Source: an uncultured Mediterraneibacter sp.
Lineage (GTDB): Bacteria; Bacillota; Clostridia; Lachnospirales; Lachnospiraceae
Assembly: GCA_944377745.1 (NCBI GenBank)
Contig: CALWFV010000023.1
Span: 1 to 50,694 of the forward strand
Length of the DNA: 50,694 nt
Direction of reading: 5' to 3'
Shown: positions 29,420-50,582 of the stretch, piece by piece
Layout of the letters: every line of letters starts with the position of its first letter
Position numbering within the stretch: the stretch's first letter is position 1
Notes under the pieces: generated by a model
The model's input: only the letters and a program-made list of their open reading frames with translations
Told to the model about the DNA's origin: nothing
Database searches by the model: none
Made by a program: the position numbers and the translations under genes

Positions 29420-29444
29420 GCTGTCCGTCCTGATGCAGGGCCTG

Positions 29445-32252: not shown

Positions 32253-32255
32253 CTC

Positions 32256-33083: not shown

Positions 33084-33095
33084 TCTGATCTCCTC

Positions 33096-33980: not shown

Positions 33981-33998
33981 ATCGTTTTGTCCTTTCCT

Positions 33999-34036
33999 AA
34001 AAAAGGAGAAGCGTTCGGGATCCAAATGGCTTCTCC
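33999..34036 (-). terminator. Hairpin after the operon 2 lipoprotein gene
   Basis: On the minus strand GGAGAAGC (34036-34029) pairs with GCTTCTCC (34012-34005), followed by six T. GTTCGG/CCGAAC offers a competing stem. It probably terminates part of the transcripts, so that the lipoprotein is made in excess over the permeases. Confidence 0.75.
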
Positions 34037-34066
34037 GAACACTCCTCCTGCTTTAAACCAGATGTT

Positions 34067-35428
34067 TTAGTTTCCGCTCATGTCATAAGCATCCTGGATC
34101 GACTGCATGTATTCCTGTCCTGTCATATCTCCATTGAGAAGCGGCTGAACATTCTCCTGTGCGATGCTGGAGACTTCCGCGTTCATCTTAGCTTCCCACC
34201 ATGCAAATCCTTCTGTTGATTTTGCGATCTCATCAAGGACAAGCTGTGTGTACGGATCCATATCTTCTGTAGAAGTCGTATACGTATATCCTTTTACAGT
34301 TCCCAGTTCTTCCATTGCAACATTACCCATGTTTTCAATGAAATATTTCATGAACCATGCTGTTCCTTCATCAAGTTTTGCCTTATCCATTGCAAGGATA
34401 TTTCCACAGTTCATTGAGTAGGATGTAGAAGAGCTGATCGACTCATCGTATACCGGGATATTGAAGAATCCAATTCCATCCTCGCCTGCTGTGTTCTGTG
34501 TCGGGTCTGTCAGGTTCTGTGTCAGCCAGGAGCCTGTGTAGAAGATTGCTGCCTGTCCGTTCATCAGCATGGATGCTGCTGTATTCGCGTCAACTGTTGT
34601 CACGCCTTCTCCGAAATATCCCGCATCAGCCCATGACGCCAGCTTATCCGCTGCTGCGACAAGTCCTTCGTCAGTATAAGGAATTTCTCCGTTTGCCGCC
34701 TTCGTCATCACATCGTTTCCAAGGGTCCTTACCGCATACGCGTTGATCAGACGTGTTGCAAGCCATTTGTCAGATCCGCCTGTCGCCATCGGCTGGATCC
34801 CTGCCGCGTCAAGTTTCTCAAGAGCTGCATCAAACTCATCCCATGTCGTCGGCACCTCAACTCCGGCCTTCTCGAACAATGCCTTATTGTACCAGAATCC
34901 TTCCACGTTCAGACCGAGCGGCAGATCGTAAAGATCTTCTGTTCCGGAGAGGTCTTTCATAATAGATACAGCGCTTTCACTTAATGAATCCCAGGCATCC
35001 AGCGCATCTACCAGGTCGGATACATTTGCCACCTTATCTGCATCGATAAGGGTTGTCAGAGGAGCTCCCGCCTCATATGCGAAGAGATCCGGCAGATCAT
35101 TTGAAGAAGAAAGTGTTGCGATCTTCTGTGTCAGATCATCTGCTGCAACATACTCATACTCCCAGTCGAAATTTGGATTTACATTATCTTTGTAATCCTG
35201 ACAGATCTTATTGATCAGGATTCCGTTATCGTTGTCCTCCGCCCAGATGGACAGGATCTTGATGCTCTTCTCAAGCTGCGGATCCTCTCCACTGTAGTCT
35301 ACATCCTGCCAGGCTGTGGAACTTTCGTCCGCTGCGGCTCCTGAGTCAGATGATCCGCCGCCGCATCCTGCGAGGAGTGACGCTGTCATCATTACACATA
35401 ACATCGATGCGATTATTCTTTTTTTCAT
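34067..35428 (-). CDS. Sugar ABC transporter substrate-binding lipoprotein, operon 2
   Basis: 453 residues. Signal peptide with lipobox LAGC and lipidated C22, then a Gly/Ser linker. The remainder follows family-1 sugar-binding proteins: LPDLFAYEAGA, GFWYNKALFEKAGVEVPTTWDEF, MLMNGQAAIFYTGSWL. It is first in the leftward operon and should capture the oligosaccharide broken down by the GH43, MGH-type and DUF5060-type enzymes. ATG 35428 with GGGAGG 7 bases upstream is chosen over an upstream frame extension. Confidence 0.93.
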   Translation of the reverse strand: MKKRIIASMLCVMMTASLLAGCGGGSSDSGAAADESSTAWQDVDYSGEDPQLEKSIKILSIWAEDNDNGILINKICQDYKDNVNPNFDWEYEYVAADDLTQKIATLSSSNDLPDLFAYEAGAPLTTLIDADKVANVSDLVDALDAWDSLSESAVSIMKDLSGTEDLYDLPLGLNVEGFWYNKALFEKAGVEVPTTWDEFDAALEKLDAAGIQPMATGGSDKWLATRLINAYAVRTLGNDVMTKAANGEIPYTDEGLVAAADKLASWADAGYFGEGVTTVDANTAASMLMNGQAAIFYTGSWLTQNLTDPTQNTAGEDGIGFFNIPVYDESISSSTSYSMNCGNILAMDKAKLDEGTAWFMKYFIENMGNVAMEELGTVKGYTYTTSTEDMDPYTQLVLDEIAKSTEGFAWWEAKMNAEVSSIAQENVQPLLNGDMTGQEYMQSIQDAYDMSGN

Positions 35429-35504
35429 CGGTTTTCCTCCCTTATCCTTTTCTTTCATTTGTTCTTTTTGTTTTGCGTCCCGGGATTTGCTTGTTGATTA
35501 CATC

Positions 35505-35698: not shown

Positions 35699-36880
35699 TT
35701 ATTCACAAATTTCATAAAGTGCATTACGTATTTTCCAGATCACATCCCAATCCTGATACGCACTGATCTGCAGGAAATACAGTATGGAAAAATTTCTGTT
35801 CAGATCAGCCATAAAATATGGACCTGTCCATCCATCCCATCCAAACTCGCCGGCGTGACCGGTTCCAGGGATCGCATCATCATTTACTAGAACACGCATT
35901 AGATAACCATATCCATACCCTCTCATTTGAGGGAAATAAACGCTTTCCGTCTGAGAGCTGTTCAGACCATTCACAGTAAATTTCCTCACTGTATCTTCTC
36001 TCAGTATCCGCCTTTCCTTCCATATCCCACCACATGCAAGCATATTCGCAAAATGACTGTAGTCTTCCATTGTAGACACCAAACCGGCTCCTGCCGATTC
36101 AAACGCCGGCGGTTCCAGGCACAACGTAAGACCAAGGTATCTTTCTTTTTCGATCTGCAGTCCTTTCTCCGTCCTCCGGTACAGCTGGGCAAATCTTCCC
36201 CTCTTTTCTTCGGGAACATAGAATCCGGTATCATACATCTCCAAAGGATCAAAAATATACTTTTTAAAAAGATCGCTCAGCCGCAATCCTGACACTTCCT
36301 CCAGGATTGCTCCCAGCACATCTGCCGAGAATCCATAATTCCATGCTTTCCCCGGCTGAAAAATCAAAGGGCATTCCGCCATCCTCCTGACCACTTCTCT
36401 CGTAGAATGGGGTGTGCCAATCTTTCCCCCTTCTTTGAGTCCTTCCATGATATCATCCATTTCTTTCTGTACTCCCTGACTTCCCGGATAAACGATCCCT
36501 GAAGTCATATTCAGAAGATGACTTATCCTGATGGTGTCAGCAGGCTCCAATCGTCCATCCGGTCTCCTGACTTTCATCATTCCATACTCCGGAAAATATT
36601 CACGGACAGGAGTGTTCAAATCCAGTCTTCCCTCTTCCACAAGACACATTGCCGCAGCAGCAGTTACTGGTTTTGTCATGGAATAAACCCTGTAGATCGT
36701 ATCTGGTCCTGTATCTGATCCAAGTTCAACATCTGCCTTTCCGCAACATACGTGAACAAGTTTTTTTCCACGAAGAAAGCAGGCTGCCTGACCGCCTGCA
36801 ATCTTTTCTTCTTTTATTTCGTGTTGTAAAATCCCTTTAATTCTGTTCGTTATTCTCTGTATCTTTCTTTCATTCATCAT
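35699..36880 (-). CDS. Serine beta-lactamase-fold hydrolase (class C-like esterase/peptidase)
   Basis: 393 residues with no signal peptide. S67-M-T-K70 is the SXXK active site, Y182 in WNYGFSADVLG takes the place of the YXN tyrosine, and GHAGEFGWDG near the C-terminus replaces the KTG box. Without export it is unlikely to be an antibiotic-resistance enzyme; relatives include esterases and D-aminopeptidases, so removal of acyl groups from imported glycans is plausible (inference). It overlaps the GH42 gene by 11 bases and is the last gene of operon 3. Confidence 0.85.
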   Translation of the reverse strand: MMNERKIQRITNRIKGILQHEIKEEKIAGGQAACFLRGKKLVHVCCGKADVELGSDTGPDTIYRVYSMTKPVTAAAAMCLVEEGRLDLNTPVREYFPEYGMMKVRRPDGRLEPADTIRISHLLNMTSGIVYPGSQGVQKEMDDIMEGLKEGGKIGTPHSTREVVRRMAECPLIFQPGKAWNYGFSADVLGAILEEVSGLRLSDLFKKYIFDPLEMYDTGFYVPEEKRGRFAQLYRRTEKGLQIEKERYLGLTLCLEPPAFESAGAGLVSTMEDYSHFANMLACGGIWKERRILREDTVRKFTVNGLNSSQTESVYFPQMRGYGYGYLMRVLVNDDAIPGTGHAGEFGWDGWTGPYFMADLNRNFSILYFLQISAYQDWDVIWKIRNALYEICE

Positions 36881-38900
36881 CCGCCTCGCAGGGTGCCAAA
36901 ATAAGCACCTCTCTTTTCCCCATAGTAATTCTTCCTGTCAATGTTTTACCTGTCAGCAGATCATAAAATGCTCTGTCATCCAAATTTACAATGGTATCTT
37001 CCTCTGCATGATTGATAAGAAATACTGTCGTACCTTTCTCATTCTCACGAACGCAGACTTCAATATTATCCTCTGCATCAATATAAGGAACAATACCGTT
37101 ATTCTCACAAATTTGATCTGTAAACTTTCTCAGAAAAGCCGCTTCCGGGCATGTACCGATATAATATGCCTTTCCCTTTCCATATTCATTCACTGTCATA
37201 CAGGGACTGCCCTCGTAGAAATCCTTTCCATAGACAGCCAGAGTCTTCGCTGATTCCGTATGTATCTGATCACATAAAAAGCCGCATACATACGTACCAT
37301 TCACTCCCTTCCATTCCCGGATCACCATCTGATTTGTCTCATCAGGATACATTGCATCTGTCTCTTCAACCCATATTCCAAGCATTTTCCTCAATTTTCC
37401 CGGATAGGCTCCGAATATGCACCTGTCATTTTCGTCTGCAAGTCCGCTCATATATGTAGTAATCAGCGTTCCGCCACATTTTACAAATTTCTCTAGTCTC
37501 TCAGCTACCCCTTCTTTCATCATATACAGAAGCGGAGCCACAATAACGCGGTACTTTCCAAAATCCGATGTCACTTTCAAAATATCCACGGAAATATGAT
37601 TTTCAAAAAATGCTTTATAATAATGGTGTACCTGATTCAGATAGTCCATATCCTGAGTAGGACCGCTGCACAGTTCCAGCACCCACCAGTTATCCCAATC
37701 GAAAAGGATTCCCACTTTTGCCGGAACTCTTGCTCCCAGAACCCGGTCTCCCAGACCTTTCAGTTCTTTTCCGATCTGACTGATCTCTCGGAATATCCTG
37801 GTATCATCCCTGTCAGCATGTGAGATTACAGCCCCGTGAAATTTTTCCTGTCCTCCTACAGACTGTCTCATCTGAAAAAACAGGCATGCATCTGCCCCGT
37901 GCCCGATTCCCTGATAAGCGATCGTCCGCACCTGCCCCGGACGCTTTATTTTATTATAAGGCTGCCAGTTTTGCTGATTTGGGGATTGTTCTGCAATGAT
38001 ATACGATTTCCCATCTTTCAGCGCCCTCATAATGTCATGCTTCATTGCCGGAAAACTAGGGTCGTCTTTCGGAGACGGATAATTATCCCAGGCCGCATAA
38101 TCCATAACCTCTGTCATTTCAAACTGATTCAGCTTTTTTATGAACCCGGATATGTTGCTGAATACTGGAATCTCAGGGGTATATTTTCTCAGCACACTGG
38201 CTTCATTCAAAAAACATTCTTTCGTTGAATCGGTCATAAACCTCATATAATCCAATTGCACTGCAGGGAAAAAACGATAATCGTCATTTTTCTCTGTCGG
38301 AAGATAAATTTCATCAAATGAATACACTGTTCTGCCCCAAAATGCAGTATTCCACTTCTCATTTAAATTATCTGTCGTTCCATATCTTCTTTTCAGCCAT
38401 TCTCGAAATTTTTTCTGGCAATTATCACAATAACAATATGTTCCATACTCATTTGCAACATGCCAGCCTAACAATCCCGGATAATCCTTGTAGCGTTTCG
38501 CCATCGCTTCCGCAATAGCAGCCGCACGTTCCCTGTATTTTTCACTGTTAACGCAGAAAAAAACTCTCATTCCATGGGTTCTCTTTCTCCCGGCAATATC
38601 CACCGGAAGCACTTCCGGATATTTTCTGGACATCCACGCCGGCTGTGCCGTTGTAGGCGTCGCCAAAAAAACATAAATCCTGTTCTTCCACAGCTTATCC
38701 AGGATTCTATCCAACCATTCGAAGCTGTACACACCTTCTTCCGGTTCAAGTTTTGCCCACGAGAAAACCGGAAGCGTCACCAGATTTATCCCCGCTTTTT
38801 TAAAAAGTTCCATATCCCGGTCGATTGTCTTATCGTCCCACTGATCTGGATTATAGTCACCTCCATACAGAATAAAAGGAACTTTTAAATTATTTTCCAT
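36870..38900 (-). CDS. GH42 beta-galactosidase
   Basis: 676 residues without signal peptide. FILYGGDYNPDQW opens the barrel; N150-E151 (HVANEYG) is the acid/base pair and E304 (YIIAEQSPNQQNW) the nucleophile. C116, C156, C158 and C161 match the zinc cluster of GH42. A trimerisation region and C-terminal beta domain follow. The family also includes alpha-L-arabinopyranosidases. It probably removes terminal galactose from oligosaccharides imported by the operon 3 transporter and is transcribed with the LacI gene just upstream. Confidence 0.93.
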   Translation of the reverse strand: MENNLKVPFILYGGDYNPDQWDDKTIDRDMELFKKAGINLVTLPVFSWAKLEPEEGVYSFEWLDRILDKLWKNRIYVFLATPTTAQPAWMSRKYPEVLPVDIAGRKRTHGMRVFFCVNSEKYRERAAAIAEAMAKRYKDYPGLLGWHVANEYGTYCYCDNCQKKFREWLKRRYGTTDNLNEKWNTAFWGRTVYSFDEIYLPTEKNDDYRFFPAVQLDYMRFMTDSTKECFLNEASVLRKYTPEIPVFSNISGFIKKLNQFEMTEVMDYAAWDNYPSPKDDPSFPAMKHDIMRALKDGKSYIIAEQSPNQQNWQPYNKIKRPGQVRTIAYQGIGHGADACLFFQMRQSVGGQEKFHGAVISHADRDDTRIFREISQIGKELKGLGDRVLGARVPAKVGILFDWDNWWVLELCSGPTQDMDYLNQVHHYYKAFFENHISVDILKVTSDFGKYRVIVAPLLYMMKEGVAERLEKFVKCGGTLITTYMSGLADENDRCIFGAYPGKLRKMLGIWVEETDAMYPDETNQMVIREWKGVNGTYVCGFLCDQIHTESAKTLAVYGKDFYEGSPCMTVNEYGKGKAYYIGTCPEAAFLRKFTDQICENNGIVPYIDAEDNIEVCVRENEKGTTVFLINHAEEDTIVNLDDRAFYDLLTGKTLTGRITMGKREVLILAPCEADDE

Positions 38901-38911
38901 ACTCTGTTCTC

Positions 38912-39931
38912 CTATTCTAATCGTTTCACACTTTGTCTGACGATCAGAGATGCGGATACTTCCATCTTCAGATTTCCTTCCCCTTCTTCCTCCATTTTGT
39001 CTATCAAAAGATTTACTGCCACAATTCCCATTTTTTTCTTCTGAACCTGTATTGTTGTAAGAGGCGGATCCAGAATTTCAGACAAGGGCATATTATCAAA
39101 ACCAATCACAGAAATATCCTCCGGAATCCTGTATCCCAGTCTCTTAAGAGACTGAATCGCAGAAATTGCAAGGATATCGTTATCTGCAAAAAATGCAGTC
39201 GGCATTTCTTTCAATGATTCCAGTCTTTTCTGGGTTTCTTCCTGAAGTGAATCCCCACCATTTGTATCAAACTCCAGGATATACTTTTTTTCTATCGGTA
39301 TATTAAGGCGTTCCATCGCTATAAAAAACCCAAAATATCTATCCCTGAAATTATTTGCATTCTGTGTAATATGAAAATATCCGATCCTTCTGTGTCCCAT
39401 TTCCTTTAAAAAGGAAACAGCCTCAAAAACACCCTGTTCATTATTAATCGTCACACTGTCATATTTCTTTGTTCCAATATAGTTGTCCAGTACTACCAGT
39501 GGCATATCAAGCTCCATAAATGCATCCAGCTGATTTTCGTTCATTTCTGTTGCAAGCAAAATCACTCCATCAGCTTTGATTCCACGGATCCTCAACAATT
39601 CATCCTGAAAAGACTGCTGATCCATATAACTGATCATCAGCTGAAAGTCTCTTTTTTTCGCCTGACTTTCCACACCTTCAATTATTTCTGAAAACAGCTG
39701 TGAAAATCTCTGGGCACCATCCCCCTGAGTCGCATTTTTTCTATACACCACGAACAGGATAGTCTTCTTCTGACCTCCTCTGCCGCTGAACATATCCTCA
39801 CAGCCCAGCTCAATCACTGCTTTTCTGACCTTTTCTCTGGTTGCTTCGCTGATTCCCGGACGATTGTTTAAGACAAGTGAAACCGTAGCCGGTGAAAGAT
39901 TTAGTTTCTGTGCCAGTTCCTTTACTTTCAT
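38912..39931 (-). CDS. LacI-family transcriptional repressor
   Basis: 339 residues. Helix-turn-helix at 1-25 (MKVKELAQKLNLSPATVSLVLNNRPGIS) with the hinge region, then a periplasmic-binding-type effector domain (KTILFVVYRK, DGVILLATEM, SVIGFDNMPLSEILDPPLTTI). ATG 39931 with an upstream GGGGGA is preferred to TTG 39934. It has its own promoter with an operator-like repeat also found at the promoter of operon 3, which suggests autoregulation and control of importer, GH42 and esterase genes. Confidence 0.94.
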   Translation of the reverse strand: MKVKELAQKLNLSPATVSLVLNNRPGISEATREKVRKAVIELGCEDMFSGRGGQKKTILFVVYRKNATQGDGAQRFSQLFSEIIEGVESQAKKRDFQLMISYMDQQSFQDELLRIRGIKADGVILLATEMNENQLDAFMELDMPLVVLDNYIGTKKYDSVTINNEQGVFEAVSFLKEMGHRRIGYFHITQNANNFRDRYFGFFIAMERLNIPIEKKYILEFDTNGGDSLQEETQKRLESLKEMPTAFFADNDILAISAIQSLKRLGYRIPEDISVIGFDNMPLSEILDPPLTTIQVQKKKMGIVAVNLLIDKMEEEGEGNLKMEVSASLIVRQSVKRLE

Positions 39932-39955
39932 CAATCTTCATCCCCCGTCTAAAAT

Positions 39956-40018: not shown

Positions 40019-40825
40019 TTACTTCACTGATCCCACCATTCCTTCTACAAATGCCTTTTGAAGCAGGAAAAAGACAAGTACTGTCGGAAGAGTTGAGATA
40101 ATGATGCCTACCATAACCATTCCATAATCCGGAGTAAATCCCGCCGCCAGATTTGAAACGGCAAGCGGAAGAGAAAATTTATCTGTACTCTGCAGTGCGA
40201 TCAAAGGCCACATATAGTTATTCCAGCTCGCCATAAACGCAAAGATTCCCGCAGCAGCATAAGTCGATTTCATCATAGGCATATATATTCTGAAAAAAAT
40301 CCCGTATTCTCCAAGACCATCAACCCTGGCCGCCTGTATTGTTTCCAGCGGAAATGCATGTGTATTCTGCTTAAAAAAGAAGATCAGAAACGGCGTACCG
40401 ATCGCAGGAAGAATAATAGAACCGAAGCTGTTAAGGAGCCCCAGATTGGAAAACATTCGGAACATCGGAATGATCTTTGCCGCAAAAGGAACCATCATTG
40501 ATGCGATCAGCGCCAGAAACAGAATATTTTTTACTTTTCCCGGGAAAATCACAAAAGCATATCCCGCTATTGAACATATAAGAAGAGACAATACTGTGAT
40601 TACAATTGCCAGAAATGCCGAATTCATAAATGCCCTCAAAATATCCGCATTCTGAAACGCATTTCTTACATTAATTAACAGGGCATTTCCAAAAGTAAGC
40701 TTGCCCATTGTAATATCCTTCGAAACATTTGTCGCGCTCACGATCATCCAGTAAAACGGGAAAATGCAGATAAGCGAAAACAAGATTAAAAACGCGTGTT
40801 TAAATAATGACTTTATCCTTCTCAT
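40019..40825 (-). CDS. Sugar ABC transporter permease (MalG type), operon 3
   Basis: 268 residues with six transmembrane segments. The EAA loop reads ETIQAARVDGLGEYGIFFRI followed by MPMMKS, and the C-terminus ends FVEGMVGSVK. It starts inside the companion permease stop by an ATGA overlap, so both are made together. The AT-rich gap after it contains the LacI promoter. Confidence 0.92.
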   Translation of the reverse strand: MRRIKSLFKHAFLILFSLICIFPFYWMIVSATNVSKDITMGKLTFGNALLINVRNAFQNADILRAFMNSAFLAIVITVLSLLICSIAGYAFVIFPGKVKNILFLALIASMMVPFAAKIIPMFRMFSNLGLLNSFGSIILPAIGTPFLIFFFKQNTHAFPLETIQAARVDGLGEYGIFFRIYMPMMKSTYAAAGIFAFMASWNNYMWPLIALQSTDKFSLPLAVSNLAAGFTPDYGMVMVGIIISTLPTVLVFFLLQKAFVEGMVGSVK

Positions 40826-41700
40826 TCTTTTTCACCTGTTATCCCTTTCTGAATTATCGTTAATATGATAATCAAAACAAATACTACATATGAAACCGCC
40901 GCGGCATATCCGTAACTCGGCACATAAGTAAATGACAGATCATAAATATATTCTGATATTGTCCTGGTTGCATCTCCCGGACCTCCATTTGTCAGGTTGA
41001 CCACCTCATCAAACAACTGAAGCGTATTAGTCAGTGCCATAATGCTTGTCAAAAATATGATTGGTTTGAGCAGCGGCATCGTAATGCGGAAAAAGGACTG
41101 GAAGAAACTGCATCCGTCCATTTTTGCCGCTTCATAGATTGACGAATCGATGTTCTGCATTGCGGACAGGTAAAAGATCATATAATACCCTGTATATCTC
41201 CAGATCAGGGCAAAAATTATAACAACCTTAGCCCAGTTTTTGTCCAGTACAAACGGAATCGCGTCATCAATCAGATGCAATTTCAACAGCATCTGGTTAA
41301 CAATTCCGTCTACCGCAAAAATGTTTTTAAAAAGAATAGCATAAGATACCATGGATGTGACACAAGGAAGGAAAATGCATGTTCTGTATATACCTCTTCC
41401 TTTTAATTTGCTGTCATTCAGCAGTACCGAGATCAGCAGTGCAAGCAGCAGCATTACCGGTATCTGCACCACTGCATATAAAAGAGTATTTCCAAGTGTC
41501 GTCCAGAAGGTGGAATCCTGGAGCATCCTGATATAGTTTGCAACCCCTGAAAAGCTTAAATTTGCGCCTTTTCCTGTCTGAAGCGAAAGGAAAAACGCCT
41601 GAATCATCGGTATATAGCTGAATACAAGGACAAATATCGCCGCAACAGTCACCATTGACCAACCCGTCAGTGCCGTCTTTGTCTTTCCTTTTAAGCTCAT
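40822..41700 (-). CDS. Sugar ABC transporter permease (UgpA/MalF type), operon 3
   Basis: 292 residues with six transmembrane segments (first: WSMVTVAAIFVLVFSYIPMI). The EAA loop reads SSIYEAAKMDGCSFFQSFFRI followed by TMPLLKP. AAAGGAG precedes the ATG. It follows the lipoprotein gene after an 80-base gap occupied by a strong hairpin. Confidence 0.92.
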   Translation of the reverse strand: MSLKGKTKTALTGWSMVTVAAIFVLVFSYIPMIQAFFLSLQTGKGANLSFSGVANYIRMLQDSTFWTTLGNTLLYAVVQIPVMLLLALLISVLLNDSKLKGRGIYRTCIFLPCVTSMVSYAILFKNIFAVDGIVNQMLLKLHLIDDAIPFVLDKNWAKVVIIFALIWRYTGYYMIFYLSAMQNIDSSIYEAAKMDGCSFFQSFFRITMPLLKPIIFLTSIMALTNTLQLFDEVVNLTNGGPGDATRTISEYIYDLSFTYVPSYGYAAAVSYVVFVLIIILTIIQKGITGEKE

Positions 41701-41727
41701 ATGATTCTCCTTTTCGACTGAATAAAT

Positions 41728-41766
41728 CCGGGAGGAATCCCTTTATAGCAGCACCATTCCTCCCGG
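41728..41766 (-). terminator. 11-bp hairpin after the operon 3 lipoprotein gene
   Basis: On the minus strand CCGGGAGGAAT (41766-41756) pairs perfectly with ATTCCTCCCGG (41738-41728), followed by ATTTATT. As in operon 2 it separates lipoprotein from permeases and probably raises the lipoprotein share. Confidence 0.7.
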
Positions 41767-41780
41767 TTTCACAATTTTAT

Positions 41781-43088
41781 TTACTGTATAGACTGTTCGA
41801 ATTGCTGTTCGGCATCCTGAAGATTTTCTGTCAGATCTCCGCCTTCAAGGATAGACGGTGTAACACCAAGAAGAGCTGACTGTGCTTCTGCAGAAAACGC
41901 TCCGGTATCGACAGCCGGAATCTTACTCATCCAGTCCGCCAGAAGTTTGTTTACCTGCTGTCCGCCAAAGAACTCAAATTCCTGATCATACGCTTCGACA
42001 TCTGATGCCGGAAGATATGTTCCGATGATACTTTTTTCAGACAAAAGCGTATTATACAATTCTGTGCTTCCGCCAAAGGTCTTTGAAAGGAAATCAGCTG
42101 CAAGTTCAGAATTTTTACTGTTCTTTAATACAAACCAGCTTGATCCTCCCTGATTTGAGTAATGAGTCGCTCCCTCTGTACTCATCTTCGGAACAGGAGC
42201 GATCTTCCATTTTCCGCTCTGATCCTCTGACTGGATGATCGTAGATGTCATCCAGCACCCTCTGAGAACGCATGCGACATCTCCGCCATTTACAGCACCT
42301 GCAAATTCGGTCCAGTCACTCACAACCTTGGTAAAGTCCGAATCATTTAATCTGCAGAAGATATCGTAACACTCTTTTAATGCAGCGTTATCTGCAAAAT
42401 CTGCGTTCCCTTCTGCATCAGTAAACCATTTTCCGGTCGACTGGAGCATAATCTGAAACTCTGCAATATCATTTGGATTGAATGTCTGAAGCATATGTCC
42501 CTTTTCTTTCAGTTTCTCCCCAAGTTCCAGATATTGATCCCAGGTAAGATCCTGCATCATTTCATCTGTATAGCCAATCTCACTCAGATAATCCGTCCGA
42601 TAATAAAGCGCTGCGACTCCACTGTCAAACGGTACCCCATATGTGACTCCGTCATAACTGACAGCCGCTGTCTTATACTCGGCAAAATCATCATAGTTGA
42701 TCACGTCTTCCATCGGTCGAAACGCATCTGGATAGGACATCAGATAGCCCTGCGCATTCAGATCGCTGATAAGAACGATATCCGGAAGATCATCTGTCAC
42801 ACCTGATGCAAGCACTGTGTGCAGTTTTGTAAGGCAATCATCTTTCGCCATCTCAACAAAGTTAATCTTAACACCATCACCATAAACTTTCTGCGCTTCC
42901 TCAAGAGCATAGCCGTTCATATTTTTATCCCAGCCCCATACAGTGATCTCATTATCTTCGCTCTTTCCCGCCTCCGATGTCTGTTCATCCTGAGCGGCCG
43001 AATCTGAAGCTGCCCCGCTTCCGCACCCCGCCAGCACAGAGGCCGCCATCACACCCGCCAGTAAGGATGCCAAAATTTTCTTTTTCAT
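41781..43088 (-). CDS. Sugar ABC transporter substrate-binding lipoprotein, operon 3
   Basis: 435 residues. Signal peptide with lipobox LAGC and lipidated C22, followed by a Ser/Ala/Glu/Asp-rich linker to about residue 48. Typical family-1 features include ITVWGWDKNMNGYALE, LPDIVLISDLNAQGYL and VACVLRGCWMTSTI. First gene of operon 3, serving the permeases at 40019-41700, with GH42 and the beta-lactamase-fold hydrolase acting on what is imported. AAGGAGG precedes the ATG. Confidence 0.93.
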   Translation of the reverse strand: MKKKILASLLAGVMAASVLAGCGSGAASDSAAQDEQTSEAGKSEDNEITVWGWDKNMNGYALEEAQKVYGDGVKINFVEMAKDDCLTKLHTVLASGVTDDLPDIVLISDLNAQGYLMSYPDAFRPMEDVINYDDFAEYKTAAVSYDGVTYGVPFDSGVAALYYRTDYLSEIGYTDEMMQDLTWDQYLELGEKLKEKGHMLQTFNPNDIAEFQIMLQSTGKWFTDAEGNADFADNAALKECYDIFCRLNDSDFTKVVSDWTEFAGAVNGGDVACVLRGCWMTSTIIQSEDQSGKWKIAPVPKMSTEGATHYSNQGGSSWFVLKNSKNSELAADFLSKTFGGSTELYNTLLSEKSIIGTYLPASDVEAYDQEFEFFGGQQVNKLLADWMSKIPAVDTGAFSAEAQSALLGVTPSILEGGDLTENLQDAEQQFEQSIQ

Positions 43089-43458: not shown

Positions 43459-44130
43459 ATGAAAATCGGTTTGGTTTACACCAGCACCACACCTGAATTG
43501 ATCGAACTCGTTAATAAAGAAGTGAGAAAACAACTCGGCGATGAAGCGGAACTCCTTCATTATGAAGACCCTTCCATTCTCTCCGAGATCCGGGAACACG
43601 GATATGTGACTACTGCTCCGGCGGCAAGACTGATCTCCATGTTCATGCAGGCGGCACAGGACGGAGCCGACGCGATCCTGAATATCTGCTCTTCCGTAGG
43701 TGAAGTCGCTGACTGCATCCAGGACGCAGCCCGCTACATCGGGGTTCCCATCGTCCGCATCGACGAAGAGATGTGCCGAGACTCAGTCCGCAGGGGTACG
43801 CGCATCGGCGTGATGGCAACCCTGCCCACCACACTGGAGCCCACGAAAAATACGGTAAAACGTGTTGCACGTGAAATGAACCGGGAGATCACCCTTGTCG
43901 ACAGTCTTGTCGACGGCGCCTTCGGTCTGGATCAGGATCAGTTTCGCACCCTTCTTTTAAATAATGCGGAGCAGATCAAAGACAAGATTGATATCCTTCT
44001 CCTCTGCCAGGGTTCCATGGCGTACTGTGAAGAATACCTGGAAGAGAAGATCGGTGTTCCGGTCGTCTCCAGCCCAAGGTACGGCGCGGCAGCACTCAAA
44101 GAGGCGCTGAAATCCAAGGGTGTACTCTGA
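43459..44130 (+). CDS. Aspartate/glutamate racemase-family protein
   Basis: 223 residues. GLVYTSTTPELIELV opens the first Rossmann-like domain; the two catalytic cysteines of the family fit C75 in ILNICSSVGE and C192 in ILLLCQGSMAYCE. The family includes racemases, isomerases and decarboxylases of small acids. Here it heads an operon with GH127, a GntR regulator, a sugar-acid kinase and a beta-keto-acid cleavage enzyme, so isomerisation of a sugar acid is more likely than amino-acid racemisation (inference). AAGGAGG precedes the ATG. Confidence 0.87.
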   Translation: MKIGLVYTSTTPELIELVNKEVRKQLGDEAELLHYEDPSILSEIREHGYVTTAPAARLISMFMQAAQDGADAILNICSSVGEVADCIQDAARYIGVPIVRIDEEMCRDSVRRGTRIGVMATLPTTLEPTKNTVKRVAREMNREITLVDSLVDGAFGLDQDQFRTLLLNNAEQIKDKIDILLLCQGSMAYCEEYLEEKIGVPVVSSPRYGAAALKEALKSKGVL

Positions 44131-44163
44131 TATACTGAAACTATTTGTTATCATTATTAAGAT

Positions 44164-44184
44164 GTTGGGGCAAAAGTTCCCAAC
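44164..44184 (+). other. Small hairpin just before the GH127 ribosome site
   Basis: GTTGGG (44164-44169) pairs with CCCAAC (44179-44184) across 9 bases; AGGAGG follows directly. There is no T-tract, so it more likely affects translation or mRNA stability than termination. Confidence 0.35.
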
Positions 44185-44198
44185 CAGGAGGTTATGAT

Positions 44199-46163
44199 AT
44201 GCTGACTGATACACACAATTCTCCTTACGCCAAAGTCTCTCCCCTTCCCTGCGGCTGCACACGCTGGACAAAGGGATTCTGGACGGATGCGGAGGAGTCA
44301 AATACCAAAAACACTGTTCCTCATCTTCAGAAGATGTTCGAGTCCAAGGACATCAGCCATGTTCTGGAAAATTTCCGGATCTGTGCAGGCGACGCGGAAG
44401 GTTCCTTTGACGGGACCGTATTCGGCGATGGAGATTTTTATAAATGGATGGAGTCCGCCGTATACAGTGCGTCTCTGAGCGGCGATCAGGCTCTCCTTGA
44501 CAAGCTCGACGAATACATCGACCTGATCGGCCGCGCCCAGCTTGACGACGGCTATATCTCCACAAAGCAGATCATCGGCGAGAGGGAGAACAACGGTATC
44601 TCCCGTCTGGGCGACATCAACGACTTCGAAGTCTATAATTTCGGGCATATGTTTACTGCGGCATGCCTTCACAAACGTCTCACAGGGAAAGACAATTTCC
44701 TGGATATCGCCAAAAAGGCCGCCGGCTATCTCGATCACCTTTATCATGAAAGCGCCCGCACCGGCAATGTCCAGACCGCCGTATGCCCTTCCCATTATAT
44801 GGGGCTTATGGAAATGTACCGTACCACTGGAGAAAAGAAATATCTCGATCTCGCCCAACTGGCGATCCGGCTCCGTGATTCGGTCAAAGACGGTCTGGAC
44901 GACAATCAGGACCGTATCCCTGTGAAGGAACACCGTAAGATCATCGGCCATGCCGTACGTGCCAACTATCTGTATGCCGGCATCGCGGATCTCTGCCTGG
45001 AAACAGGAGACGGGGAATATATTAATGTACTCCACAGCGTGTGGGATAATCTGATCCATCAGAAGCTCTATATCACCGGCGGATGCGGAGCTCTTTACAA
45101 CGGAGCCTCTCCCTACGGACAGTTTTTCATCCATCAGCTAGTACACCAGGCATACGGCTATGACTATCAGCTTCCCAATATCACAGCTTACAACGAGACC
45201 TGCGCCTCTGTAGGTTCTGTACTCTGGGCGTACCGCATGTTCCAGCTGGAGCCGAAAGCCGAGTATTTTGACCTGATCGAGCGCACCATGCTCAATGTCA
45301 ACCTTGCCGCAGTCAGTCTGGACGGGAAAAAATATTTCTACGAAAACATGCTCCGGCGGGCAAAAGAGCTGCCCTACGAGCTGATCTGGCCGCTGACAAG
45401 GAGCGAATATATCTTAAGCTACTGCTGCCCGCCCAACCTGGCCCGCACCATTGCGGAATCCAGCGAATACGCTTATACTGTATCTGATGATGCGCTCTGG
45501 ACAGGCATATACGGTGCAAACAGGGCATCGGTACAGCTTCCCTGCGGAACTGCCTTCACCGTAGAACAGGAAACAGCCTATCCGTATGACGGAACGATCC
45601 GATTTACGTTCTCTGATATCCGCGGCGGTGATTTCCAGTTGAAACTCCGCATCCCCGGATGGGCCGAAAAAGGACATATCATCTGCGGGGACACGAAGCT
45701 CGAACTCACAAGAGAGCAGGCCGACTCCTATCAGTCCGTCTCCGTCTCCGGGGATCATGTCTCTGTGGAACTGTACCTGGACATGCCCTCCCGTTACACG
45801 GTGTCTCATGCTCTGGTGGAAGAAAACACCTGTCAGGCAGCTGTTGAGCGGGGTCCGCTCGTATACTGCATAGAAAACCCGGACAGTGAACTGGACACAC
45901 TGGATGATCTGATGCTGGATCCCACGGAAACCTTCCATCCTGTACCGATGCAGATCGAAGGAAGGGATATGATGGCGCTGGAAGGCAGCGCGCTGGCCGT
46001 ATGCCATGAAGAAGACTATGATCCGGGTGCCTTATATCAGACGCTTTCTGTCCGCAGACTCACGCCGACAAAGATCCGGATGATCCCTTATTTTGCCTGG
46101 GATAACCGCGGGTATGGCGAGATGAAAATCTGGATGCCGGTGGCTCTTCGTCAGTTACCTTGA
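44199..46163 (+). CDS. GH127 beta-L-arabinofuranosidase (DUF1680 family)
   Basis: 654 residues without signal peptide. E333-T-C335 (YNETCASVGS) and C409-C410 (ILSYCCPPNLA) are the zinc-binding residues and cysteine nucleophile of GH127. The (alpha/alpha)6 barrel fills about the first 430 residues, followed by beta-sandwich domains. ATG 44199, preceded by AGGAGG, is preferred to an upstream in-frame start. GH127 enzymes release L-arabinose from beta-linked arabinofuranosides in plant glycoproteins and pectin side chains; some relatives have other specificities. Confidence 0.92.
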   Translation: MLTDTHNSPYAKVSPLPCGCTRWTKGFWTDAEESNTKNTVPHLQKMFESKDISHVLENFRICAGDAEGSFDGTVFGDGDFYKWMESAVYSASLSGDQALLDKLDEYIDLIGRAQLDDGYISTKQIIGERENNGISRLGDINDFEVYNFGHMFTAACLHKRLTGKDNFLDIAKKAAGYLDHLYHESARTGNVQTAVCPSHYMGLMEMYRTTGEKKYLDLAQLAIRLRDSVKDGLDDNQDRIPVKEHRKIIGHAVRANYLYAGIADLCLETGDGEYINVLHSVWDNLIHQKLYITGGCGALYNGASPYGQFFIHQLVHQAYGYDYQLPNITAYNETCASVGSVLWAYRMFQLEPKAEYFDLIERTMLNVNLAAVSLDGKKYFYENMLRRAKELPYELIWPLTRSEYILSYCCPPNLARTIAESSEYAYTVSDDALWTGIYGANRASVQLPCGTAFTVEQETAYPYDGTIRFTFSDIRGGDFQLKLRIPGWAEKGHIICGDTKLELTREQADSYQSVSVSGDHVSVELYLDMPSRYTVSHALVEENTCQAAVERGPLVYCIENPDSELDTLDDLMLDPTETFHPVPMQIEGRDMMALEGSALAVCHEEDYDPGALYQTLSVRRLTPTKIRMIPYFAWDNRGYGEMKIWMPVALRQLP

Positions 46164-46262
46164 GCCGGGAATCTCTGTATGGCAGATCTTCCCCCACACC
46201 GAACAGCGAATCATCAATGTGTTATCCATTTAATAGCATATTCAGACAAAGGAGAGAACAGT

Positions 46263-46982
46263 ATGGCAGGAAAAAGCAACGTATTTTCTCAGCCCCTGAC
46301 AACGGAGAATGTAGTAGACTGTATCGTAAAACAGATCACAGACAAGATCATTTCCGGCGACCTGAAACCCGGAGACAAACTCCCCACCGAACCGGAACTG
46401 TGCCAGGCCTTTCAGGTTGGGCGTAATTCTGTCCGGGAGGCGATCAAGATACTCTGCGCTTATGGGATCGTCTACATCAAACGCGCGGAAGGCACCTTCA
46501 TCAATGACAGATATTCCCAGAAGATGCTGGATCCGATGCTTTACGGCATTCTTCTTCAGGGAAATTTTGCGGAGGACGTAGTCCTTCTCCGAAAAGTCCT
46601 TGATATCGGGATCCTCCACACTGTCATGGACACTGTGACTGAGGACCAGCTCAATATGCTGTCGGTTCATCTCGAGCGCCTGAAAACTCTGGTTTTTGCT
46701 CCCGAGCCTGACATGGAAGCCATCTTTGACGCCGACGTTGATTTTCATATGGAGATCACCCGGTTTACCGGAAACGAAATGCTTTACAGTATCTATTCCT
46801 ATGTGGACAGGATCACACGTCCTTCCCGGGATCACGCTCTTCAGATAATTCTGGACAAGAATGAAAAAAATACATTTATCGAACTTCACGAAAAGATCAT
46901 CACGCTGATCAGAGAAAGACAGTTTGATGAGATCGAGACAACTTTAACAAATCATTACCAGTTCTGGAGCCAGGTCATCTGA
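46263..46982 (+). CDS. GntR-family regulator, FadR subfamily
   Basis: 239 residues. N-terminal winged helix (ITDKIISGDLKPGDKLPTEPELCQAF, VGRNSVREAIKIL, EGTFIND) and an all-helical C-terminal FCD domain with candidate metal ligands (DVDFHMEI, LHEKIITLI). ATG 46263 with AAAGGAG 9 bases upstream is preferred over an in-frame ATG at 46179. FadR-type proteins of sugar-acid operons usually repress until bound by the acid. The operator-like sites at 43410 and 35505 are candidate targets. Confidence 0.92.
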   Translation: MAGKSNVFSQPLTTENVVDCIVKQITDKIISGDLKPGDKLPTEPELCQAFQVGRNSVREAIKILCAYGIVYIKRAEGTFINDRYSQKMLDPMLYGILLQGNFAEDVVLLRKVLDIGILHTVMDTVTEDQLNMLSVHLERLKTLVFAPEPDMEAIFDADVDFHMEITRFTGNEMLYSIYSYVDRITRPSRDHALQIILDKNEKNTFIELHEKIITLIRERQFDEIETTLTNHYQFWSQVI

Positions 46983-47006
46983 CCTGCTCCGGAGAAAGGA
47001 TAAACT

Positions 47007-48434
47007 ATGGAAACACAGCCACTTGATATCCTTGACTCTTTTGTCCCCGCGGACGACGATTCTGTCTCCCCGGTACTTGAAAAGGAACTCAGGGATCTTA
47101 ACAGAAAAATCGTGGTGCTGGATGATGACCCTACAGGGATCCAGACAGTCCACGACATATATGTATATACAGACTGGAGTCCTGAGACGATCCGGGAAGC
47201 ATTCTCAGACCCTTCCCCTATGTTCTTTATCCTGACAAACTCCCGCAGTCTCTCTCAGGCCGACACATCACAGCTCCACCGCGAGATTGCCGAAACCGTA
47301 TACCAGGTCTCACAGGAAACAGGGAAAAAATTTCTCCTTCTTTCCCGCGGCGACAGTACCCTGAGGGGACATTACCCTCTGGAAACGGAACTTCTCAGAG
47401 AAACTCTGGAGTCTCATTCCGGCTTCTCTTTTTCCGGAGAGATCATCTGTCCTTTTTTTCCGGAGGGCGGACGTTTCACTGTAAACAATATCCATTACGT
47501 CCGGGAGGGCGACAGACTGATCCCGGCAGGCGAGACAGAGTTTGCCAGGGATAAGACCTTTTCCTTTCATGCTTCCGACCTGACAGAATATATAGAAGAA
47601 AAAACAGAAGGGAAATTCCGAAAAGAGGACTGCATCTGCATCTCCATCGAAGAACTCCGCGCCATGGATTATGACGGGATCACCCGAAAACTTATGGAAG
47701 CGGAAGATTTCGCAAAAATCATCGTCAATGCAGTCTGCTATACCGACCTGAAAGTATTCACTGTATCATGGATCCGCGCCATGAAGACAGAGTGCCACTA
47801 CCTCGCCCGTTGTGCCGCGGCTCTGCCGAAGGTGATCGGCGGGATCTCGGACAAACCGCTCCTTACACGGCAGGATCTCCGCCCCGATGATTCCCGAAAC
47901 GGCGGGCTTATTATCATCGGATCCCATGTCAAAAAAACAACGCAGCAGTTTCAGCAGCTGCTGAACGCTCATCTGCCTCTTCAGCCGCTGGAATTCCGTG
48001 TCAGCACCTATTTTGAAGAAGGCGGGCTTGAGGGTGAGACCCGGCGGGTCCTTGCCCGGGCAGAAGAACTGATCCGATCCGGCACGACAGTACTGATCTA
48101 CACCAGCCGGGAACTTCTGGCGCCGGAAGGATTCAGTGAGGAAGACCTTCTCTCCCTCTCCGTCCGGATTTCCGAGGCACTCACCTCCGTGGTATCTCTG
48201 CTGTCTGTGAAGCCCTCCTTTATCCTCGCGAAAGGCGGCATCACATCCAGCGATGTGGGGACCATAGGACTTCATGTCAGAAAAGCTCTTGTCCTCGGAC
48301 AGGTAAAGCCCGGCATCCCGGTATGGCTCACCGGACCGGAAAGCCGTTTCCCTGGAATGCCCTATATCATCTTCCCCGGAAATGTGGGGGCTCCGGAAAC
48401 ATTGAAAGAAATCGTGGAAGAACTGCTCCGTTAA
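47007..48434 (+). CDS. Four-carbon acid sugar kinase family protein (DUF1537)
   Basis: 475 residues. The N-terminal domain has VVLDDDPTGIQTVHDIYVYT, FILTNSRSL and LLLSRGDSTLRGHYP, hallmarks of the family. The C-terminal nucleotide-binding domain has LIIIGSHVKKTT, ILAKGGITSSDVGTIGL and IIFPGNVGAPETL. Characterised members phosphorylate 3-oxo-tetronates, D-threonate or D-erythronate. Typical partners (an OtnC-like aldolase or a PdxA2-like dehydrogenase) are absent here, and a BKACE enzyme takes their place. Confidence 0.9.
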   Translation: METQPLDILDSFVPADDDSVSPVLEKELRDLNRKIVVLDDDPTGIQTVHDIYVYTDWSPETIREAFSDPSPMFFILTNSRSLSQADTSQLHREIAETVYQVSQETGKKFLLLSRGDSTLRGHYPLETELLRETLESHSGFSFSGEIICPFFPEGGRFTVNNIHYVREGDRLIPAGETEFARDKTFSFHASDLTEYIEEKTEGKFRKEDCICISIEELRAMDYDGITRKLMEAEDFAKIIVNAVCYTDLKVFTVSWIRAMKTECHYLARCAAALPKVIGGISDKPLLTRQDLRPDDSRNGGLIIIGSHVKKTTQQFQQLLNAHLPLQPLEFRVSTYFEEGGLEGETRRVLARAEELIRSGTTVLIYTSRELLAPEGFSEEDLLSLSVRISEALTSVVSLLSVKPSFILAKGGITSSDVGTIGLHVRKALVLGQVKPGIPVWLTGPESRFPGMPYIIFPGNVGAPETLKEIVEELLR

Positions 48435-48525
48435 ATGCAATGGTTTTTGACCTGAACAGTTCCGTGAAAACCGCTGTTTCTCTTTTCATCAGAATCATCA
48501 TGTTTACATATACAGGAGGTTTCAT

Positions 48526-49329
48526 ATGGATATGAAAAAAGTAATCATCTCACTGGCGCCTGTCGAGGCCGGCACTCCCGTAGACGCAGACGCTCTGGCA
48601 GAAGATGTGGCGAAAAGTGCAGAGCTCGGTGCCGCAATGTGCCATCTCCACTGCCGTCGCCCCGACGGCTCCCTCACGCCAGATATTTCCTATATGTCAG
48701 AATGCTTTGACAAGATCCTTGCTAAGACGGATGTGGTAGTGCAGGCATCCACCGGAGGCGTATCCGACCTCACCATCGAGGAACGCTGCTTCCCGCTTGA
48801 TTATAAGCCCACGGAAAGTGCTTCCCTGAACGGAGGCACGACCAATCTGGGGGAAGCGGTCTACATCAATTCCTTTGACGACATCCGCTACTGCGCACAG
48901 CAGGTATACGACCGTGGGATCATCCCGGAGATCGAAGTTTTTGATATCGGCATGATCCACAATATTATGACCACTACCACAGAAGTTCCCTACCGTGATC
49001 CGATTCTCTTCAACCTTGTATTCGGGCACAAAGGCGGGATGCAGCCCACCATCGAGAGCCTTGCCGCCTTCCGCTCCTTTGTCCCGGCCGGGACAAAGTG
49101 GGGCGTCACCCACTTCGGGCGTGACAACTGGAACTTTCTGGCGGCTGCCATCGCCATGGGAGCTTCCATCGTCCGCATCGGTTTCGAGGACAGCCACCAC
49201 TTAAGCCCTCAGGAAAACGCGCAGTATAATTATCAGCTTGTGGAGAAACTTGCCGCGCTGATCCGGGCTATGGATTTCGAGACCGCAACGCCGGATGAGG
49301 CAAGAGAGATTATGGGGATCAGAAGATAA
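48526..49329 (+). CDS. Beta-keto acid cleavage enzyme (BKACE/DUF849 family)
   Basis: 267 residues. VIISLAPVEAGTPVDADALAEDVAKSAELGAAMCHLHCRRPDG carries H40 and H42, which fit the zinc ligands; E14 and the later GVTHFGRDNWNF and RIGFEDSHHLS segments fit the (beta/alpha)8 barrel. Characterised members condense a beta-keto acid with acetyl-CoA to give acetoacetate and a new CoA ester. AGGAGG lies 6 bases before the ATG. Last gene of the rightward operon; the substrate presumably comes from the kinase or racemase step. Confidence 0.88.
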   Translation: MDMKKVIISLAPVEAGTPVDADALAEDVAKSAELGAAMCHLHCRRPDGSLTPDISYMSECFDKILAKTDVVVQASTGGVSDLTIEERCFPLDYKPTESASLNGGTTNLGEAVYINSFDDIRYCAQQVYDRGIIPEIEVFDIGMIHNIMTTTTEVPYRDPILFNLVFGHKGGMQPTIESLAAFRSFVPAGTKWGVTHFGRDNWNFLAAAIAMGASIVRIGFEDSHHLSPQENAQYNYQLVEKLAALIRAMDFETATPDEAREIMGIRR

Positions 49330-49398: not shown

Positions 49399-50412
49399 TT
49401 ATTTACTTTTCATCTCATTCCTCGCCTGCTCAATCTCCTGATCCGTCGCCTCTGTACACTTCCTGATCACCGAAGCAGACATGCCTTCTTTTATCATCCT
49501 CGTGATAATAATAAGTTTTTCCTGAGTCCTTCCCGCCTTTTCGCCATCCGCATAAATATCATCCAATGCCTTGCACATATCAATCTGTTCCTCCTCCCCG
49601 GAATCCACAACCTCTTTTAATTTCTTCCCTGAATGCAGAAACGCGCCCAGAGCCTGATACGTCTCCACATCGACCTGTCCGAAATAGTCTCGGTTCTCCT
49701 GCATATATCTCTGCAGTTTTTCTTTCTCTCCTCTGTATTTTAACATGCCGAACACCTGTTGTAAATCCGTCCGGAACCAGCTCACATCTTCCACATTACC
49801 CGCATCCAGCAGATTGATCTTATAGTTCAGAAGATAATCCTTTATCAAGATTTCCTTCTTCATCGAAGCGTCAAGCCGGAACATGTCATAAAGCTCCACT
49901 GCTCCGTCCCACTTCTTCACATCATAGTAAAACACCAGCGTGATCACCGGATAGATCCTGTCTTCTTTTCGGAACCGGGACAGATACTCTTCCGCACTCA
50001 GATGTCTTGTCATCCCCTGTCCATTCTCCTTTTTCTTCTGACCTTTCGCGTTTGAAGAGTTTCTCCCATATCCGCGTTTTCTCCACAGGCTTCGGATCTG
50101 ATCCGTATATGTAAGACTGTCCTGGAGCATATTCCGCACCGGCATGGCGTAATGGGTCTTATCCTGAATCTCGCATGCAAGAACAGCGAGCAGGATCTCA
50201 TGATTCCAGCGTTTCACAAGGTCCCTGTAGCGCTGAACGCCGCGTTCCTTCCCACCTTTGTCCGTGATGATAATATCCGTCTCTCTGTCCATATCCTCCA
50301 GTTCTTCCGGCAGCACCACCTGCTTTCCTCCGAATACCGTTCCGTTGAACAGGTCTGCGAATCTTTCCCTGTCGTTCAGCCAGTTTTTAACTGCAATGTC
50401 TGCTTTTCCCAT
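49399..50412 (-). CDS. Rpn-family (YhgA-like transposase/nuclease) protein
   Basis: 337 residues. N-terminal region with GVQRYRDLVKRW and the LLAVLACEIQDKTHYAMPVRNMLQDSLTY segment, which matches the PD-(D/E)XK-like core of Rpn/recombination-promoting nuclease proteins (usually EXQ, here E-I-Q), and a helical C-terminal tail. Multicopy in Lachnospiraceae; DNA cleavage and phage-defence roles are known for some relatives. ATG 50412 with GGAGGAAC upstream is preferred. It lies closest to the right inverted repeat. Confidence 0.8.
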   Translation of the reverse strand: MGKADIAVKNWLNDRERFADLFNGTVFGGKQVVLPEELEDMDRETDIIITDKGGKERGVQRYRDLVKRWNHEILLAVLACEIQDKTHYAMPVRNMLQDSLTYTDQIRSLWRKRGYGRNSSNAKGQKKKENGQGMTRHLSAEEYLSRFRKEDRIYPVITLVFYYDVKKWDGAVELYDMFRLDASMKKEILIKDYLLNYKINLLDAGNVEDVSWFRTDLQQVFGMLKYRGEKEKLQRYMQENRDYFGQVDVETYQALGAFLHSGKKLKEVVDSGEEEQIDMCKALDDIYADGEKAGRTQEKLIIITRMIKEGMSASVIRKCTEATDQEIEQARNEMKSK

Positions 50413-50582
50413 AGGCAGTTCCTCCTCTGTACTCAATATTTATAAAAGTTTTCATCAAAATTTGGTATCTCCGGCTGAAACGCCATGAAAATCGAGATAT
50501 GTGCCGTCTGCTAAAGACAGTTTTCCGCTCCGGACTTTGAAGCTATAAGAAATCTGATCTGTCCGGGATTTTGATGTGATGT

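Follow-up and report, generated by a model that had tools for sequence, protein, structure and literature searches.

A five-gene operon at positions 43459-49329 of a 50,694-nucleotide stretch of DNA from an uncultured Mediterraneibacter sp. (contig CALWFV010000023.1, hereafter the window) may serve the catabolism of a branched acid sugar set free inside the cell by a hydrolase of family GH127, most likely L-aceric acid of rhamnogalacturonan II (RG-II); we give this reading a probability of roughly 0.4. On the plus strand and in this order, the operon encodes a 223 aa protein with the Asp/Glu racemase fold, called RAC here (43459-44130; PF01177, 61 bits), an aceric-acid-hydrolase-like GH127 of 654 aa (44199-46163; PF07944, PF20736 and PF20737, scanned from 44202), a regulator of the GntR/FCD family (46263-46982; PF00392, PF07729), a 475 aa DUF1537 kinase with SBD_N and NBD_C domains, KIN (47007-48434; PF07005, 150 bits; PF17042, 110 bits), and a beta-keto-acid cleavage enzyme of 267 aa, BKACE (48526-49329; PF05853, 220 bits). 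All five are open frames and all their Pfam matches lie above curated cut-offs. The GH127 starts at the ATG at 44199, preceded by ggagg, and no signal peptide was seen in it when judged by eye. A first-pass annotation of the same DNA had pointed out this gene set, which is confirmed, and had proposed a sugar-acid pathway different from the DUF1537 routes described so far, which is supported by the conservation of RAC, KIN and BKACE as a set to which the GH127 belongs.

The neighbourhood survey that this annotation had suggested was carried out with a profile of 11 RACs run over genome contigs, which gave 167 confirmed relatives, the best 80 of which were kept as loci (cited by L numbers, genomes by G numbers). 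KIN is present in 54 of these 80 loci, BKACE in 56, the GntR regulator in 41, GH127 in 33, a TRAP membrane subunit in 32 and a BASS transporter in six. Such counts come from profile searches of the fetched stretches, fragments included, and an absence applies to the fetched stretch only; since fused members went into the GH127 profile, GH127 matches inside KIN frames were left out, and the p values given here, computed from manually entered counts, are not corrected for kinship. When only the 55 loci are taken in which RAC is flanked by 8 kb or more downstream and 3 kb or more upstream, 39 carry both KIN and BKACE, six BKACE only, four KIN only and six neither. A separate round of counting gave marginally higher figures: 35 GH127 loci instead of 33 among the 80 and, in the 55-locus set, 23 instead of 22 with GH127, 46 instead of 45 with BKACE and 40 instead of 39 with KIN and BKACE together. 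The closest RACs from named records are those of Candidatus Mediterraneibacter norfolkensis (L058, 100% identity) and excrementigallinarum (L059, 99%).

The GH127 match starts at most 150 bp from the end of the RAC match in 31 of the 33 GH127 loci, and GH127 and KIN are fused in one open frame of 1121 aa, whole in L069 and, in L074 and L094, with KIN truncated where the stretch ends. A search made without RAC seeding points in the same direction. The GH127 clade of the window (54-100% identity) occurs in 12 of the 295 genomes sampled from the order, its own included, and KIN of the window's kind, found in 33 of the 295, is present in all 12, against one of the 16 genomes with only distant GH127s of 31-38% identity (Fisher p 4e-7). 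BKACE is likewise found in 12/12, the G167 copy having an internal stop, and RAC in eight at E 1e-60 or better, the remaining four holding a weaker RAC relative (38-40% identity, one with a stop). Among the 33 KIN genomes, 21 have a BKACE match (E 1e-10) and 22 a RAC-like match (E 1e-5), often adjacent. From these sequence comparisons, RAC, KIN, BKACE and this GH127 clade very probably belong to one pathway, and the link to a glycan put forward in the first-pass annotation is supported by the adjacency, the fusions and the co-occurrence of KIN.

As to the acid itself, the identity of the GH127 is the best guide. In NCBIfam it matches a single model, NF049879, 'aceric acid hydrolase' (762 bits), and among solved structures it is closest to 5mqo (533 bits), followed by 4qjy (334), 6ex6 (318) and HypBA1 (3wkw, 285). 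Structure 5mqo is, to our understanding, BT1003, the aceric acid hydrolase. The acid/base position is occupied by Glu in HypBA1, where we take it to be the acid/base E322, and also in 4qjy and 6ex6; it is Gln in 7exu. The window GH127 and 5mqo both have at this position a Gln preceded by His, following an insertion common to both. This His-Gln, together with a Cys-Cys motif, is found in 32/32 readable copies (34 copies with the window, 32 of which reach the region); the His-Gln motif with the insertion is a marker devised in this analysis and has no published definition. Because of this proximity to 5mqo and the constancy of the motif, aceric acid is the most likely substrate, with odds slightly better than even. 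The genome of the window holds a single GH127. Some RAC loci also carry other glycosidase genes beside the module: GH140 in five of the 80, rhamnosidase (GH78 by reading) in nine, GH29 in eight and GH42 in seven. The GH140 protein of L115 scores 358 bits to 3kzs/5msy and has no NCBIfam match at 1e-15. A GH106 beside RAC in L042 was considered as an RG-II rhamnosidase and rejected as support, with 47 bits at best, and 38 bits for 5mqm, to solved GH106. A 3,6-anhydrogalactosidase of the carrageenan GH127 type is not favoured, since 5mqo leads the PDB matches and the aceric model is the sole NCBIfam match, in a comparison that held no anhydrogalactosidase sequence.

L-aceric acid is 3-C-carboxy-5-deoxy-L-xylose, CHO-CHOH-C(OH)(COOH)-CHOH-CH3 in its open form. 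In the route that we propose, GH127 would take it off an imported oligosaccharide, and RAC would convert the aldose into the ketose HOOC-C(OH)(CHOHCH3)-CO-CH2OH, which is a beta-keto acid. BKACE would then cleave this ketose by a retro-aldol reaction into acetaldehyde and 3-oxo-tetronate (C6 = C2 + C4), the enolate staying on its zinc. The zinc of BKACE stabilises enolates of beta-keto acids, and a zinc-bound enolate is what these enzymes normally make. KIN would phosphorylate the four-carbon acid to 3-oxo-tetronate 4-phosphate, and products of this kind are described for DUF1537 kinases. Decarboxylation of 3-oxo-tetronate 4-phosphate would give dihydroxyacetone phosphate (DHAP), while the acetaldehyde would be converted to acetyl-CoA. 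The ketose of aceric acid is an analogue of 3-oxo-isoapionate, a substrate of DUF1537 kinases. The 4-phosphate of 3-oxo-isoapionate is named in PMC6302742.

In BKACE, H40, H42, E137, R217, E221 and D222 align with the active site of Kce and presumably have the same zinc and catalytic roles; the predicted structure (pLDDT 89.5) is closest to Kce 2y7d-f, and the score to the 3-keto-5-aminohexanoate cleavage enzyme model NF052387 is 211 bits, below its cut-off of 382. H168 and T195 are invariant in 15/15 copies, Kce having Val and Ala there. A role as retro-aldolase acting before KIN is less likely than not. Trees were made of 50 KIN and 55 BKACE sequences retained by length limits, and the midpoint-rooted BKACE tree has two groups, A and B, with support of 0.94-1.00. 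GH127 accompanies 21 of the 23 clade A members, the window included, and none of the 32 of clade B, for which reason clade B may act on a related but different acid. KIN is 50-53% identical to kinases of L010, L011, L014 and L019 that adjoin LtnD-like genes (by sequence) and genes of fructose-bisphosphate aldolase (FBA) type. It scores 41.8 bits as D-threonate kinase DtnK (NF047819), where the cut-off is 450, and had no match to solved structures at 0.001.

The wider KIN family offers a few observations of its own. In L010, L011, L014, L016 and L019, KIN relatives lie beside LtnD-like genes and a PanB-like gene adjoins (by sequence); FBA-type genes are visible in all of these except L016, and the loci are likely three-step L-threonate clusters. 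A cluster in L022 combines two kinases of DUF1537 type with a PdxA-like gene, as named from sequence. In L057 (G226:C48), which may represent another acid pathway, an additional copy of KIN lies close to ABC permease-like genes and a distant relative of BKACE (about 31%).

The isomerase role of RAC is the weakest part of the mechanism. We assign it because RAC is the step common to the loci with KIN and BKACE and to those with a transketolase described below, and the assignment as an aldose-ketose isomerase is tentative, with more doubt than confidence. The first catalytic cysteine, Cys77, is invariant in 81/81 sequences (80 loci and the window), while the second catalytic position is Ala in 64 and Cys in 17, the window belonging to the latter group (Cys183); another cysteine, Cys106, is at least 97% conserved. 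The AlphaFold model (pLDDT 91) matches, in Foldseek, hydantoin, allantoin and glutamate racemases, arylmalonate decarboxylase and maleate isomerase at 13-20% identity. In 14 of the 80 loci, among them L080, L085, L091, L099, L101, L119 and L133, a cupin of about 117 aa, a possible small isomerase, is encoded between the GntR and BKACE genes or next to KIN or RAC.

A second type of locus may handle the acid with other enzymes. Seven loci have a split transketolase that shares at least 69% identity with the one of L090; none of them has KIN or BKACE in the fetched stretch (those of L089 and L090 being among the shorter ones), and two, L084 and L130, have GH127. In the 55-locus set, transketolase occurs in five of the six loci without KIN and BKACE and in two of the 49 others (p 3.5e-5), where it is of a different type (35-51% identity). 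IlvD lies in the same block in four of the seven split-transketolase loci, a gene of the 3-hydroxyacyl-CoA dehydrogenase family in two and a xylose-isomerase-like gene in three. The transketolase would remove the upper two carbons of the ketose and leave 3-hydroxy-2-oxobutanoate, which a reduction and IlvD would turn into 2-oxobutanoate. Loci with transketolase, with or without IlvD, in place of KIN and BKACE also fit an aceric acid route, and a single substrate with a CH3-CHOH end would suit both branches. A divergent protein resembling transaldolase (PF00923), which scores far under the NCBIfam transaldolase cut-offs, is encoded in L084, L096, L107, L113, L134, L136 and L137; KIN is absent from the fetched stretch of all seven (L096, L136 and L137 being short contigs), and this protein may replace the kinase. 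The complete scheme, in which BKACE is a zinc retro-aldolase, a racemase-fold protein an aldose-ketose isomerase and transketolase with IlvD an alternative branch to 2-oxobutanoate, is quite unlikely to be correct in every part.

The relatives vary in how the acid is supplied and in the genes that may handle its products. In the 55-locus set, 21 have TRAP only, 18 GH127 only, six BASS, four both GH127 and TRAP and six none of these. Transporter variants occur in Sporomusa and Pelosinus, and some bacteria may, to judge from such variants, feed on free acid released by others. An Aldolase_II-type gene is found in ten of the 80 loci, an aldehyde dehydrogenase gene in ten and a microcompartment shell gene in 11; the aldehyde dehydrogenase of L127 exceeds the PRK15398 cut-off (643 vs 403) and is presumably CoA-acylating, and L044 carries phosphotransacylase (PTAC) and bacterial microcompartment (BMC) genes. 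FBA-type genes of the BASS loci L077, L108, L111 and L118 and of the TRAP locus L091 were compared with partial copies lying, in other genomes, beside LtnD-like and KIN genes, to which they are 55-61% identical; those of L068 and L073 are 37-45% identical to copies beside LtnD-like genes (seven proteins compared). As this make-up is that of the three-step L-threonate pathway, RAC and BKACE seem, in these FBA-carrying relatives, to replace the dehydrogenase and to feed KIN with a four-carbon oxo acid. By analogy, the same may apply to the GH127 loci.

In the genome of the window, three Aldolase_II proteins were found: AraD, a C14 aldolase and a protein of 285 aa taken from its sequence to be a rhamnulose-1-phosphate aldolase. 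The C14 aldolase matches the OtnC model best, with 138 bits against a cut-off of 250, and adjoins GlcG/HbpS-like and aldehyde dehydrogenase genes, as named from sequence; it is a candidate, and no more, for the last step to DHAP. The first-pass annotation had considered OtnC and PdxA2 partners as absent. This is right for the locus, where none of LtnD, OtnI/OtnC and PdxA2 was found (LtnD and OtnI were not searched genome-wide), and for PdxA, which has no match in the whole genome.

Several observations weigh against aceric acid catabolism by the proposed route. The score of the GH127 lies below the NF049879 curated cut-off of 950, which is why we call the protein only aceric-acid-hydrolase-like. 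Genes of Aldolase_II or FBA type and genes for aldehyde dehydrogenase or BMC were seen in none of the 33 GH127 loci. What becomes of the products therefore has to be deduced from loci that lack GH127, and those of them that have BKACE belong to clade B, which may concern a different acid. Since the genes that point to acetaldehyde and to the four-carbon acid all come from such loci, our overall confidence is set slightly lower, at the level stated at the outset. The own genome has no close FBA-type copy (41% at best), and no gene in it could be assigned to the last step. For RAC, we know of no member of the Asp/Glu racemase superfamily that acts as an aldose-ketose isomerase; a separate xylose-isomerase-like protein exists in the transketolase loci L084, L087 and L089, and the loci were gathered by RAC itself, which weakens the argument that it is the shared step. 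Nor are the genes inseparable. In the 55-locus set, KIN is absent from six of 45 BKACE loci and BKACE from four of 43 KIN loci; among the genomes of the order, the GH127 clade is missing from 21 of the 33 with KIN and from five of the 13 with RAC, while in G105 RAC was detected and KIN was not at the thresholds applied. L116 and L132 have another type of transketolase beside KIN and BKACE. Finally, the loci L104, L081 and L088, with B-type BKACE, apparently lie in G120 (C246), G187 (C48) and G210 (C73), genomes that hold the GH127 clade elsewhere.

Of the other explanations, two carry more weight than the rest. The acid could be another branched sugar acid or a four-carbon one, its glycoside being cut by this GH127 clade and the enzymes acting in similar ways. 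This is rather unlikely, although it would accommodate the sub-threshold score of the GH127, a family that spans 3,6-anhydrogalactosidases and arabinofuranosidases as well, the transporter variants of Sporomusa and Pelosinus, which suggest a commoner free acid, and the difference between BKACE clades A and B; the 5mqo active-site motif and insertion in every readable copy argue for aceric acid instead, as do the genes for GH140 (the one tested being that of L115), rhamnosidase, GH29 or GH42 that accompany the module in some loci. If the acid is aceric acid, the order of events may differ: KIN would phosphorylate the ketose, BKACE, or RAC acting like arylmalonate decarboxylase, would decarboxylate it to 5-deoxypentulose 1-phosphate, and an aldolase would yield DHAP and acetaldehyde. 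The ketose does offer a free hydroxyl where DUF1537 kinases act (the 4-OH of 3-oxo-tetronate), the GH127-KIN fusion suggests an early kinase, most RACs retain only the first of the two catalytic cysteines, arylmalonate decarboxylase ranks 14th among the fold matches, and genuine aldolases may be encoded by the Aldolase_II- and FBA-type genes. We nevertheless hold this order to be unlikely, as in five of the seven loci compared the FBA-type genes resemble copies found next to LtnD-like and KIN genes, which points to C4 chemistry, and as none of the 33 GH127 loci has an aldolase of either type of its own.

Two further explanations are much weaker. The first-pass annotation had proposed that a phosphorylated beta-keto sugar acid is cleaved with acetyl-CoA; BKACE would then form an acyl-CoA and an acetoacetate derivative. 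Such a reaction is not supported, though the Kce catalytic residues are retained and Kce is the closest fold: the products would be predicted to resemble phosphoglycolyl-CoA, and genes to handle them were not seen in the loci, whereas the aldehyde dehydrogenase, phosphotransacylase, microcompartment or FBA-type genes that accompany some transporter-type relatives fit an aldehyde and a four-carbon oxo acid better. We regard it as very improbable. The annotation had also named the GH127 an arabinofuranosidase, in line with the family names in Pfam and PDB. On this view it could be an ordinary beta-L-arabinofuranosidase neighbouring an unrelated acid pathway by chance. The label is better replaced by aceric-acid-hydrolase-like, the aceric model being the only one matched in NCBIfam, and we give next to no credence to a chance neighbour: the His-Gln motif with its changed acid/base residue, the adjacency to RAC, the three fusions and the co-occurrence with KIN in 12/12 genomes speak strongly against a plain arabinofuranosidase.

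The surroundings of the operon, which runs from RAC to BKACE, hold further glycan genes. Divergent from it, on the minus strand, lie a sugar ABC transporter (40019-43088) with two permeases, recognized by sequence and cluster, and a substrate-binding protein, recognized by Pfam, probably an oligosaccharide importer; a LacI-family regulator (38912-39934, Pfam); and a GH42 (36870-38900; PF02449, 464 bits). The ABC block, LacI and GH42 also adjoin RAC-GH127 in L059, L071 (Blautia schinkii DSM 10518), L112, L122 and L128. Farther on the same strand, a second glycan block (27796-35458) comprises a GH140-like protein (DUF5060/Apiosidase/DUF5605), a GH43, an MGH1-like hydrolase and an ABC transporter; a comparable block (GH140-like, MGH1-like, ABC) adjoins RAC-GH127 in L060, and we infer that the one in the window is part of the same system. 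Also on the minus strand are a sulfatase (PF00884, 218-1684) and a radical-SAM protein (9930-11162) that resembles, by its sequence, an anaerobic sulfatase-maturing enzyme. On the other side, the terminator scan listed no terminator 3' of BKACE. A putative transposase of YhgA/Rpn type (49399-50436, minus strand; PF04754 just below its cut-off) directly follows the operon, and it may mark a mobile edge, since a BKACE match was found in 0/36 sampled genomes of the same genus.

Three enzyme families appear here in a new context, and the module suggests a way for Bacillota to exploit part of RG-II. PMC12168206 describes RG-II as present across all plants and reports that most of its linkages have known hydrolases. 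In the literature searched, which excluded most subscription journals, we found no description of aceric acid catabolism or of this gene set, and a route for breaking down aceric acid appears to be without known description.

The nearest relatives of the proposed pathway are those of L-threonate. As described in PMC12540250, they comprise a four-step version, LtnD-OtnI-OtnK-OtnC, and a three-step version, LtnD-2-OtnK-2-OtnC, consisting of LtnD, a DUF1537 kinase and an FBA-domain OtnC, and 3-oxo-tetronate is the substrate of OtnK. The DUF1537 kinase and the likely product DHAP are common to both systems, and some relatives of our locus add FBA-type (2-OtnC-like) or Aldolase_II-type genes; the locus itself is without LtnD or OtnI, has RAC and BKACE instead, and would receive its acid from GH127. 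A RuBisCO-like protein was not among the 17 window proteins scanned, a search that was not extended to the genome. The catabolism of D-apiose, reportedly described by Carter in 2018, is said to use a DUF1537 kinase, OiaK, on a 2-branched 3-oxo-tetronate, and a split transketolase, AptAB. It resembles the system proposed here in starting from a branched plant sugar of RG-II, in its DUF1537 kinase and in its split-transketolase variant, and differs in having the RuBisCO-like protein where our locus has BKACE.

The individual enzymes show the same mixture of kinship and departure. RAC shares the fold and the first catalytic cysteine with the Asp/Glu racemase superfamily (hydantoin racemase, arylmalonate decarboxylase, maleate isomerase), but the second cysteine is not conserved and the additional Cys106 is. 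BKACE shares fold and aligned catalytic residues with its family, which includes Kce of lysine fermentation and cis-epoxysuccinate hydrolase, whereas its sugar-acid context, the pair H168/T195 in place of Val and Ala and a score under the Kce equivalog cut-off set it apart from Kce. The aceric acid hydrolase BT1003 of Bacteroides thetaiotaomicron is named in PMC10850190 and PMC5698469. The GH127 of the window carries the same active-site motif and insertion as that enzyme (5mqo), but it has no visible signal peptide, falls below the equivalog cut-off and is joined to an acid-catabolic module.

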